Shown piece after piece: positions 59,608 through 62,696 of a stretch of 64,000 nt of DNA. Every line of letters starts with the position of its first letter. Position 1 is the first letter of the stretch. The DNA is from Pseudomonas sp. BN411 (GTDB lineage Bacteria; Pseudomonadota; Gammaproteobacteria; Pseudomonadales; Pseudomonadaceae). The notes under the pieces are model-generated. The model was not told where the DNA came from, did no database searches, and saw nothing but the letters and a program-made list of their open reading frames with translations. The translations under genes were made by a program, and so were the position numbers. Where the stretch lies: contig NZ_SSOM01000067.1 in assembly GCF_029871235.1 (NCBI RefSeq), positions 124,001-188,000 on the forward strand. The letters run 5' to 3'.

Positions 59608-60036
59608 ATGACCCCGAGAGAGCAAGAGATCGCCCGCCGGACAGAGCTGTCCGAAAGCCGGGTAACCAAAGCGGTATTCCCGCCCAGCACCAACCATCAC
59701 AACACCCTGTTCGGCGGCACTGCCCTGGCCTGGATGGACGAAGTGTCCTTCATCGCTGCCACGCGCTTCTGCCGCCTGCCCCTGGTGACCGTTTCCACCG
59801 ACCGTATCGACTTCAAGCATCCAATCCCGGCCGGCTCCATCGTCGAGCTGGTGGGGCGCGTGGTGAAGGTGGGCAACACCAGCCTCAAGGTCGAGGTTGA
59901 GGTGTTCGTCGAGGACATGTACAGCGCCACCCGTGAGAAGGCCATCACCGGCGTGTTCAGTTTCGTTGCCATCGATGACGAGAAGCGCCCGGTACAGATC
60001 CTGCCAGCGTTTCCCCAGGCGGCTGACGCTGCGTGA
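59608..60036 (+). CDS. Acyl-CoA thioesterase (hot-dog fold, YciA-like)
   Basis: A 142-residue hot-dog-fold thioesterase (FPPSTNHHNTLFGGTALAWMDEVSFIAA, TVSTDRIDFKHPIPAGSIVELVGRVVKVG) that hydrolyses acyl-CoA. The catalytic aspartate is in AWMDEVS. It is preceded by a 190-base gap with no clear promoter and followed by a terminator. Confidence 0.92.
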   Translation: MTPREQEIARRTELSESRVTKAVFPPSTNHHNTLFGGTALAWMDEVSFIAATRFCRLPLVTVSTDRIDFKHPIPAGSIVELVGRVVKVGNTSLKVEVEVFVEDMYSATREKAITGVFSFVAIDDEKRPVQILPAFPQAADAA

Positions 60037-60037
60037 A

Positions 60038-60068
60038 TGAAAAAGGCACCCAATGGGTGCCTTCTTCG
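60038..60068. terminator. Terminator between thioesterase and the MshEN-domain gene
   Basis: Stem aaggcaccca / tgggtgcctt, flanked by A and T-rich runs. It sits between convergent genes and can serve both. Confidence 0.82.
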
Positions 60069-60081
60069 TTATCGGCCAGGA

Positions 60082-60762
60082 TCAGTTGCGCATGCTGATC
60101 TTCAGCGATGCCTGGGACAGGTCGATGTTGTTCAGCGTCAGGCTGCCGAAACTCTGGTTCTGCGGCGCGCCGGCAACGCGGATGTTTTCGAAGCGCAACT
60201 CACCGATGGAACTGGGCAACCGCAGGTTCACCGAACCGTCCGAATTGACCACCGAGGTCATCTTGCTGGTGTCGTAGACCACGTCCTTCATCGAAGTCTC
60301 GGCATCCAGGCTGTCCAGCACCGGCATCACCAGCTTCGCCAGTTGCTTCACCGCGCCCAGCCCGTCGCCCTGTTCGGCTTGCAGGAACAAGCCCTGCAAC
60401 ACATCGTCCAGACCCTGGGCGCTGACATTGCTCATCTCCAGGTCGGTCAGCGGGCGTAGGCCCCGCGGTGTTTCCTGGCGGCTGATGCTGGCGGGCGGCT
60501 GCAAGCGCTGGATATCGGCGCTGGCCATCTGGAAGGGGCTCATTAACGCGGCCACAAGGGTAGCCGCCAGACGCAGGTTGCTCTGTTTCTTCAGGGCCTT
60601 GGTCAGTTGCTTCTGGGTCAGCAGGCCTTGCGCTATCAGTACTTCACCCAGCCGCATCTTGCTGGTGAGCTGCATCTTGATTGCGGCATCCAACTGCTGG
60701 GAGGTGATCAGACCCTTGTTGATGAGGATCTGCCCCAGGCGGGAGTTCATTTGGTTGGCCAT
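60082..60762 (-). CDS. MshEN-domain protein with internal signal-peptide-like segment
   Basis: A 226-residue protein. Residues 8-31 and 37-60 are two full copies of the 24-residue motif RLGxx(L/I/V)2xxG(L/I/V)2x4Lx3(L/I)xxQ, with the exact 5-residue spacer, the known c-di-GMP-binding MshEN layout. A hydrophobic stretch (about 63-82) ends with M-A-S-A, like a Sec cleavage site. The rest holds the LRPLTDLEMSNVSAQG motif (DUF6160/FilF-like exported proteins start this way after their signal peptide) and a beta-rich region. No ATPase domain is present. Predicted: cytoplasmic c-di-GMP binder tied to an exported domain; function unknown. Confidence 0.85.
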   Translation of the reverse strand: MANQMNSRLGQILINKGLITSQQLDAAIKMQLTSKMRLGEVLIAQGLLTQKQLTKALKKQSNLRLAATLVAALMSPFQMASADIQRLQPPASISRQETPRGLRPLTDLEMSNVSAQGLDDVLQGLFLQAEQGDGLGAVKQLAKLVMPVLDSLDAETSMKDVVYDTSKMTSVVNSDGSVNLRLPSSIGELRFENIRVAGAPQNQSFGSLTLNNIDLSQASLKISMRN

Positions 60763-60857: not shown

Positions 60858-62696
60858 TCAGTGTGTTTGCGCCAGGGTGCGATCAGCGGTAACACCGGGT
60901 TGCTCCTCGGTTTCCATCAGGGACACCAGGGTCCAGTCCTTTTCCGGCGTGAAGTCCAGCGGTTGCCCGGCCAGGTGCACCCAGCCGCGTGGATCGCGGG
61001 CCAGCAGAAGCGTGGCGCGGTTGCCGTGCAGGGCCTGGTATTCGGCCCAGCCGAAGGTCGCGGTCAGGGTAGTGGTGCGCACGTCGGCGCCCTTGGCGAG
61101 ATAGCTGGCGAACTGCGGGAAGGTCAGAGGCTGGCCACCGAGGGGGCGGCCGCGCACGGTCTCGCTGACGCGATGCTTGTCCGAGCGCCGGCTTTCGTTG
61201 CCGGTCGGAAGGGTGAAACGGCGCTGGGCGTTGAAGTCATGGCGGAAGTGCATGCAGGCCAGAGCATTGAGTTCGCTGGAAGGGGAGAGCGCCAGCAGGT
61301 GACCGAGGCCGACCAGGTCGAGGTGCGCTTCGGCGTGCTGCGATGTCGGGTTGCCGAAGTAGGTGGGCAGGTTGTCCATGCGCGCGGCGCGGATGTTCTC
61401 CCAGCTGGAATCGGTGAGCAGTACCCGGCTACCAAGGTTCTGCAGGGCCTTGCCGACTTCGCGGGCCACGGGATTGGCGCCGATGATGAGGAAACCCGAC
61501 GGCGCCGGCTCTGCCACCTTGAGCAGTTGCGCCAGTGGGCGTGCAGTGGCGCTCTGCAGCACCACGGTGCCGATGATCACCAGGAAGGTCAGCGGCACCA
61601 GCAATTCGGCCTGCTCGTTGCCCTCGCCCTGAAGGCGCAAGACGAAGATCGCCGAGACGGCCGCGGCGACGATGCCGCGTGGAGCGATCCAGGCCAGCAA
61701 TGCGCGTTCACGCCAGCTCAGGCTCGACCCCAGGGTGCTGACAGCGACGTTCAATGGCCGAGCGATGAACTGGATCACCGCCAGCAACAGCAGGGTCGCC
61801 GGGCCCATGGCCACCAGCGCGGCGAAATCCAGGCGAGCCGCAAGGAGGATGAACAGCCCGGAGATCAGCAGCACGCTGAGGTTCTCCTTGAAGTGCAGGA
61901 TCTGCCGCACATCCACTCCGCGCATGTTGGCCAGCGCCATGCCCATCACGGTCACCGCCAGCAGGCCGGACTCGTTCACCAACAGGTTGGCGCCGATGAA
62001 CACGCCGAGTACCGCGGCCAGTGCTGCGAGGTTCTGCAGGTACTCCGGCAGCCAGTGGCGGCGTAGCACCACGCCGAACAACCAGCCGCCGGCAGCGCCC
62101 AACAGCGTCCCGCAGGCGATCACCGCGGCGAAGGTCGACAGGCTGGCGCTCCAGCCTCCGTTATCACGGCTGACGATGAAACTGAACACCACCACCGCCA
62201 GCAGCGCACCGATCGGGTCGATGACGATGCCTTCCCAGCGCAGGATGTTGGCGATCGAGGCGCGCGGCCTCACCACACGCAGCATCGGCACGATCACCGT
62301 GGGCCCCGTTACCAGGGTCAGGGTGCCAAACAGAAGTGACAGCTCCCAGGAGAAGCCCAGCAGCCAGTGGGTGGCGATCGCGATCACCGCCCAGGTGATC
62401 AGCGCGCCCACGGTCACCATGCGTCGTACCACGCTGCCGATCTCGCGCCATTCGGAGAAATGCAGCGTCAGGCTGCCCTCGAACAGGATCAGCGCCACCG
62501 ACAGGGAAATCAGTGGAAACAGCAGTGGCCCGAACAGCGCCTGCGGGTCCAGCAGGCCGGTCGCCGGGCCGGCGAGAATGCCGGCCAGCAAGAGGAAGAG
62601 GATGGCCGGCAGGCGCAGGCGCCAGGCCAGCCACTGGCTGAACAGCGCAGCCGCGCCAATGCCGCCCAGACCCAGCAGGATATGGTGTTCGCTCAT
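60858..62696 (-). CDS. CPA1-type cation:proton antiporter with C-terminal Rossmann-like domain
   Basis: A 612-residue inner-membrane protein: about 12 transmembrane segments in residues 5-400 (LPAILFLLLAGILAGPATGLL; the acidic ion pathway is likely in EGIVIDPIGALLAVVVF). A cytoplasmic tail follows with FLIIGANPVAREVGKALQNLG, a TrkA-N-like nucleotide-binding fold. It exchanges Na+ or K+ for H+; ion specificity cannot be read from the sequence. PAO1 has a probable Na+/H+ antiporter at this place. It is divergent from xerD. Confidence 0.92.
   Translation of the reverse strand: MSEHHILLGLGGIGAAALFSQWLAWRLRLPAILFLLLAGILAGPATGLLDPQALFGPLLFPLISLSVALILFEGSLTLHFSEWREIGSVVRRMVTVGALITWAVIAIATHWLLGFSWELSLLFGTLTLVTGPTVIVPMLRVVRPRASIANILRWEGIVIDPIGALLAVVVFSFIVSRDNGGWSASLSTFAAVIACGTLLGAAGGWLFGVVLRRHWLPEYLQNLAALAAVLGVFIGANLLVNESGLLAVTVMGMALANMRGVDVRQILHFKENLSVLLISGLFILLAARLDFAALVAMGPATLLLLAVIQFIARPLNVAVSTLGSSLSWRERALLAWIAPRGIVAAAVSAIFVLRLQGEGNEQAELLVPLTFLVIIGTVVLQSATARPLAQLLKVAEPAPSGFLIIGANPVAREVGKALQNLGSRVLLTDSSWENIRAARMDNLPTYFGNPTSQHAEAHLDLVGLGHLLALSPSSELNALACMHFRHDFNAQRRFTLPTGNESRRSDKHRVSETVRGRPLGGQPLTFPQFASYLAKGADVRTTTLTATFGWAEYQALHGNRATLLLARDPRGWVHLAGQPLDFTPEKDWTLVSLMETEEQPGVTADRTLAQTH

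Follow-up and report, generated by a model that had tools for sequence, protein, structure and literature searches.

An MshEN-type c-di-GMP domain placed before an internal signal-like segment and an exported-type tail in the likely ortholog of PA3740 from Pseudomonas sp. BN411

NfrB of E. coli combines a glycosyltransferase with an MshEN domain and is described, in the passages available, as a membrane-associated protein that acts on an envelope function (PMC8669469). In the published passages on Pseudomonas aeruginosa, PA3740 appears as an MshEN protein that carries a previously uncharacterized domain and is linked to swarming, and the same source reports that the isolated MshEN_N domain of V. 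cholerae, 62 residues long, binds c-di-GMP (Wang et al., 2016, PMC5013675). Peptides of PA3740 around LKKALKKQTNLR have also been reported to bind c-di-GMP (Duvel et al., as quoted in PMC8789108). According to further passages, deletion of PA3740 in fleS/fleR mutants that overproduce c-di-GMP gave no drop in biofilm (PMC8335546), while PA3740 was found lowered in a motABmotCD mutant (PMC3174259) and raised in a relA spoT mutant (PMC7122816). The labels given to the protein differ between these sources, as it is called a PilZ-domain protein in one passage (PMC8335546) and an MshEN protein in others (PMC5013675, PMC7122816).

The window, i.e. the whole stretch of 64,000 nucleotides from Pseudomonas sp. 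BN411 that was analysed, contains a gene for a 226-aa protein that is likely the ortholog of PA3740. Since PA3740 is in print as an MshEN protein linked to swarming and its peptides are reported to bind c-di-GMP, the sensor half of this protein is already known, and what is new here is the exported tail, the internal signal and the recurrence of the arrangement. A first-pass annotation of the DNA knew of no description of such a layout, which was incomplete as regards the published sensor half but agrees, as far as the passages of the open-licence literature searched are concerned, with our finding no description of an MshEN domain followed by an internal signal and an exported tail.

Gene neighbourhood and sensor half

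The gene lies between an acyl-CoA thioesterase-like gene (59608-60036, plus strand) and a Na+/H+ exchanger-type antiporter gene (60858-62696, minus strand), with ffh-rpsP-rimM-trmD-rplS upstream of the locus (ffh, rpsP and rplS assigned by eye) and xerD nearby. The order rplS-thioesterase-gene-antiporter-xerD is also found at locus L148 of a close species, whose protein shows 75% identity. Orthology with PA3740 is likely from synteny and sequence, where the basis consists of the gene order, the published assignment of PA3743 as trmD (PMC6448920) and the quoted peptide, PA3740's own sequence lying outside the comparison. Residues 53-64 of the window protein (LTKALKKQSNLR) are identical to the published PA3740 peptide at 10 of the 12 positions, and the motif is numbered 55-62 in print versus 53-60 in the window protein. 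Residues 53-64 lie at the junction of sensor and signal. In one genome (G151), with a TrmD that matches PDB 6jki, taken to be P. aeruginosa TrmD, at 100% identity, the corresponding peptide differs from the published one. The features are as follows:

60082..60762, minus strand: gene of 226 aa (ORF with ATG start), likely ortholog of P. aeruginosa PA3740
60670..60741, minus strand: MshEN motif 1, residues 8-31 (relaxed published motif; the NF053729 match spans residues 8-60)
60583..60654, minus strand: MshEN motif 2, residues 37-60, last residue Gln60 (strict published motif)
60517..60582, minus strand: internal signal-like segment, residues 61-82 (R64, h-region about 65-75, P76, A80-S-A82), from ortholog conservation and a charge-free hydrophobic window
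60463..60516, minus strand: variable Pro/Ser-rich linker, residues 83-100 (highest pN/pS, 0.573, among the six regions compared)
60409..60459, minus strand: DUF6160/FilA-type N-terminal motif LRPLTDLEMSNVSAQGL, residues 102-118, a pattern shared with orthologs and ordinary exported relatives
60085..60408, minus strand: remaining tail, residues 119-226, predicted with low confidence to be helical, then beta (profile of ordinary exported relatives, structure model)
60043..60063, no strand assigned: terminator-like stem of 9 pairs between the convergent thioesterase gene and the MshEN gene (pattern scan, consensus match only)

Residues 8-60 are an MshEN domain by sequence, and binding of c-di-GMP by the window protein is accordingly a prediction. 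The NCBIfam model NF053729 scores 60.6 bits against a curated cut-off of 38 (E=9.3e-17, residues 8-60), and the gene is the only match to this model in the source genome at E 0.01 or better. MshE (PDB 5htl) matches in a sequence search (E=8.9e-7) and also ranks first in a Foldseek search with a low-confidence model, over 58 columns with an rmsd of 2.3 and a probability of 1.00 but an E of only 0.25. The two 24-residue motifs (residues 8-31 and 37-60) and their exact 5-residue spacer are present as first annotated. That they match every fixed position of the published consensus was slightly overstated, as motif 2 has the strict form whereas motif 1 matches only in the relaxed form because Ile28 takes the place of the Leu required by the strict form. 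Searches against Pfam, NCBIfam and the PDB found no ATPase domain in the 226-aa protein, in line with the earlier reading; with its short length and no C-terminal ATPase domain, it does not belong to the MshE-type secretion/pilus ATPases.

The internal signal-like segment

Directly after the second motif, a hydrophobic stretch (LRLAATLVAALMSPFQMASA) ends in AxA at residues 80-82, as the first-pass annotation had described. In the 65 distinct orthologs that remained from 101 coding sequences, R64, P76, Q78 and A82 are invariant, and residue 80 is A in 59, I in 3, S in 2 and V in 1. With R64, the hydrophobic core, Ala82 in 65/65 and Ala or Ser at residue 80 in 61/65 (Ile or Val in the other 4), the segment has the sequence pattern of a candidate Sec signal, although at an internal position. 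Within the orthologs, pN/pS is 0.208 for residues 61-82, as compared with 0.335 for the MshEN domain, and 0.332, 0.357 and 0.392 for the regions remaining besides the linker. The idea that the segment is exceptionally conserved and hence special is weakened by an ordinary paralog (15 sequences), where pN/pS is again lower in the signal peptide (0.394) than in the mature part (0.602); a low value for the segment therefore does not by itself demonstrate a special role.

Downstream of the last MshEN Gln, the 11-residue window of highest hydrophobicity is free of charges in 111 of 114 non-ATPase ORFs versus 0 of 42 ATPase/long ORFs, and it reaches a mean KD of 1.8 in 100 of the former versus none of the latter (best mean 1.65). 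The 114 ORFs are redundant, as 68 come from loci L001-L108, for the most part direct orthologs, and the junction profile described below served to pick many of the remaining ones; three that look like cut or tandem fragments (L187, L193, L164) were counted as failures. A Walker A pattern is found in 41 of the 42 ATPase/long ORFs. The absence of such a segment from all 42 bears on whether the 226-aa protein could be a soluble cytoplasmic MshEN protein with the hydrophobic stretch as a buried core helix. This reading would fit the prediction that the helix continues from MshEN helix 4 and the existence of other apparently soluble non-ATPase MshEN proteins, but the tails found with the layout include Beta-lactamase2 and DUF6160-type domains and one protein carries a lipobox, so that we consider it very improbable. 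As judged from sequence, the earlier view that the stretch is an export signal within the chain and not a soluble core helix is thereby strengthened.

It has also to be asked whether translation might start near residue 60, with the MshEN part left untranslated or made as a separate product. Ordinary relatives of the tail do begin at their signal, but none of the 65 orthologs has a Met at residues 50-65 (a count of Met, with GTG and TTG outside it), the MshEN part evolves as protein-coding sequence and all 55 intact matches in the family lie in frames of at least 228 aa. A start after residue 60, which the first annotation had named as a way to be wrong, is thus hardly credible.

A further alternative is that the segment is never cut and serves as a permanent anchor, making the product a bitopic membrane protein in which c-di-GMP signals inside-out to the tail, as in Alg44 or LapD. 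This would be in keeping with the AlphaFold2 model of the whole protein, in which the ligand helix and the hydrophobic helix are predicted as one continuous helix of residues 50-87, albeit with low confidence (mean pLDDT 55.3), and with the nearly fixed distance between the last Gln and the hydrophobic window, which is +4 in 82 of the 100 ORFs above the hydrophobicity threshold, most of them direct orthologs. The segments look processed, however, because the charge-free core is short and is followed by the invariant Pro and the AxA-like site with invariant Ala82, and because a lipobox (LVAC) replaces the AxA-like site at the signal position of L239. We therefore regard a permanent anchor as possible but would not favour it over an internal Sec signal that is probably processed.

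Exported relatives of the tail and recurrence of the layout

Profiles and a shared motif relate the tail distantly to DUF6160/FilA-type exported proteins. The profile built from close ordinary relatives aligns with the window protein over residues 136-222 (i-E 1e-6, E 2e-7 for the whole sequence), which places the tail in the wider DUF6160 superfamily, and it matches 64/65 orthologs and 14/47 other MshEN-plus-signal ORFs versus 0/560 shuffled sequences. Pfam DUF6160 (PF19657) itself gives 14.1 bits on residues 84-226 against a gathering cut-off of 27, hence the tail falls outside the Pfam family; it likewise stays outside FilA (NF050077, cut-off 220 bits), with no NCBIfam match for these residues. 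The 27 ordinary relatives that were compared are 31 coding sequences minus one duplicate and minus L126, L128 and L138, which are too long or unlike.

In 23 of these 27 proteins the motif stands at residues 21-26, directly after the N-terminal signal. The window protein has LRPLTDLEM at residues 102-110, about 19 residues past Ala82. The first-pass annotation had it begin as it does after ordinary signal peptides, a comparison that is right as such but passes over the Pro/Ser-rich linker (residues 83-100) in between. The motif pattern occurs in 58/65 orthologs and 17/47 other MshEN-plus-signal ORFs and in 0/22400 shuffled tails. As the ordinary-relative profile matches the C-terminal part and, in the orthologs L096 and L103, gives a single alignment from the signal through to the end, the gene looks like an MshEN domain set before a whole preprotein, even though the signal region, taken by itself, gives only a weak alignment with the signal peptides of these relatives (i-E 5.3). 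An ordinary paralog (L089, 150 aa; Pfam DUF6160, E=2.7e-27) starts MKSFKQLALAAAVLAAPFMAQA-DLKAMDDSALSGVTGQDGI, with the cleavage point placed by eye, and the source genome holds a 95% identical copy of it (G000:C54) that has an N-terminal signal peptide and no MshEN domain. Ordinary DUF6160/FilA-type exported proteins of the source genome that lack MshEN were seen at G000:C54:112777-113226 (L109) and G000:C81:11815-12003 (L125). An AlphaFold2 model of residues 99-226 (mean pLDDT 58.5) gave no Foldseek match at E 0.001 or better among 454 (best E 0.63), with probabilities of 0.14 or less among the best 50 of them.

Among 298 genomes of the family, 56 have a match to the tail profile, namely 55 intact genes and one broken copy; the only further matches are three weak ones to a paralog in a 156-aa frame. 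At one locus (L105, G009) a broken copy of the gene stands next to a short remnant of the antiporter gene.

Beyond direct orthologs, the layout recurs with different tails. A profile of the junction was searched in 293 genomes of the window's order, and among the 102 matches listed, 47 reach model position 69 or beyond, in frames of 151-321 aa from 39 genomes, while the other 55 end at position 61 or earlier in frames of 297-802 aa. A search with the MshEN family alone, which is blind to the signal segment, covered 145 genomes of the window's own order and found 35 distinct ORFs in frames below 350 aa, of which 27, from 21 genomes, have the layout; the remaining 8 are cut ATPases, TPR-like, EpsG-like and others. 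The counts of both searches and the sorting of the ORFs were made by eye. Outside the order but within the same class, the layout occurs in at least six loci (L151, L152, L153, L170, L178, L245). In a draw of 398 genomes from the phylum, position 69 is reached, among the matches listed, only in the window's order and in one long ORF without the segment (L246). This ORF (710 aa) and L247 (644 aa) were considered as distant members for reaching that position and were rejected, as neither has a signal segment by eye; a Walker A pattern is absent from them too. The 47 distinct distant members leave out both and include L240, whose frame stops shortly past the segment, without a proper tail.

Two tails are Beta-lactamase2 domains (L170 and L178, E 4.5e-19 and 2.8e-21), and these proteins could possibly be c-di-GMP-linked serine hydrolases of the periplasm. 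Both consist of repeated MshEN-like units, a signal and the Beta-lactamase2 domain. The canonical DUF6160 motif is present in the tail of L150, and that of L236 has a weak fn3 match (E 0.042). Among the 30 MshEN-plus-signal proteins that lack the DUF6160 motif, 14 have short tails with a C-terminal Phe, Phe making up 3.1% of these tails. The Phe-ended tails are those of L151, L152, L222, L226, L228, L231-L235, L237, L238, L242 and L243, several of them with alternating hydrophobic residues. A C-terminal Phe with alternating hydrophobic residues resembles the C-terminal signal of outer-membrane proteins.

In a tree of the 56-aa MshEN part, for which 142 sequences were thinned to 95 (fragments L187, L193 and L164 left out), 57 of 60 signal-type domains and 0 of 35 ATPase/long ones fall in one group (support 0.80), though a domain of this length, in a set biased by the search profile, gives no proof of a single origin. 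A separate group of non-ATPase MshEN proteins was also seen, comprising L280, L281 and L282, which are apparently soluble, about 280-310 aa long and by eye have TPR-like tails.

One could imagine that export through the internal signal is real while c-di-GMP plays no role, MshEN being a leftover that merely delays or shapes translocation. Such a view would accommodate the erosion of the motifs in distant members, of which 35/47 lack at least one relaxed half (both are present in 12/47, at least one in 36/47), and the absence of the gene from some close relatives, as in G005 (locus L143), where it is cleanly missing between its neighbours. Against it, both relaxed motifs are retained in 60/65 direct orthologs, the pN/pS of the domain indicates purifying selection and the PA3740 peptides are reported to bind c-di-GMP (PMC8789108, as far as quoted there). 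From our point of view an idle MshEN domain is rather unlikely, and a working sensor before an export signal is preferred.

A proposed mechanism and comparison with known systems

We propose that the 226-aa protein is probably a c-di-GMP receptor that sits in the membrane and has its output exported, in which MshEN would lie in the cytoplasm and an internal Sec signal would send the tail across the inner membrane, with probable cleavage. The MshEN domain (residues 8-60) would remain cytoplasmic and bind c-di-GMP, and the putative Sec signal (residues 61-82), beginning four residues past Gln60 as the last ligand residue, would take the DUF6160/FilA-related tail (residues 83-226) over the inner membrane. 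A cut by signal peptidase I after Ala82, which is plausible from the site, would leave MshEN and signal together as a stub and set the tail free in the periplasm or outer membrane; if uncut, the segment would persist as an anchor. The helix with the Leu/Gln ligand residues is predicted, with low confidence, to continue without a break into the signal helix (residues 50-87), which would place the bound ligand right at the entrance of the translocon. The ligand would therefore most likely act on export, on processing or on the state of the signal next to the membrane, and it may hold export back, promote it or simply accompany it. The messenger may in this way have a direct effect on a protein located beyond the inner membrane.

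The domain content of the protein, its conservation and its recurrence with different tails are observations, and the topology with the sensor inside and the tail outside is an inference that sequence comparison supports well. The weak alignment of the signal, the Pfam score below cut-off, the poor models, the erosion of the motifs and the unlowered biofilm of the fleS/fleR mutants on deletion of PA3740 count against the proposal. Overall, the first-pass interpretation of a membrane-held c-di-GMP sensor that releases or controls an exported domain is partly supported: the underlying observation holds up, the topological part of the interpretation has gained strength, and its mechanism is not proven.

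Since one sensor-plus-signal module is found in front of various exported tails, it may offer a general link between c-di-GMP and proteins of the envelope that needs neither a transcription step nor an ATPase. A gating of the signal by c-di-GMP, if real, would constitute a new level of control over Sec export, for which we know of no precedent.

With the MshE/PilB/GspE-type ATPases, the window protein shares the same N-terminal c-di-GMP domain, but it lacks the ATPase and instead has a signal-like segment directly after MshEN, which is missing in 42/42 ATPase/long ORFs. Alg44 and LapD are c-di-GMP receptors with periplasmic parts that signal inside-out. They resemble the proposed layout in having a cytoplasmic c-di-GMP domain and an output beyond the inner membrane, but their receptor domains are other than MshEN, and the window protein has a signal-peptide-type junction and a module shared among different tails. 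To our knowledge, neither has a signal-peptidase-type site directly beside the receptor. The ordinary DUF6160/FilA-type exported proteins have the N-terminal motif and the C-terminal beta region in common with the window tail, but possess an N-terminal signal peptide only, while the window protein adds MshEN before the signal and a linker after it. NfrB is, in the passages available, likewise a membrane-associated MshEN protein with an envelope function, but its MshEN domain is C-terminal and controls a glycosyltransferase (PMC8669469). PA3740, finally, is close to the window protein in its gene neighbourhood, which is the same in the close species L148, and in the peptide that resembles residues 53-64; it differs in that the published passages cover the c-di-GMP domain and an uncharacterised rest, without an exported tail or an internal signal. 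Left in those passages with an 'uncharacterized' domain, PA3740 would thus gain a concrete layout, with the sensor inside and the output outside.
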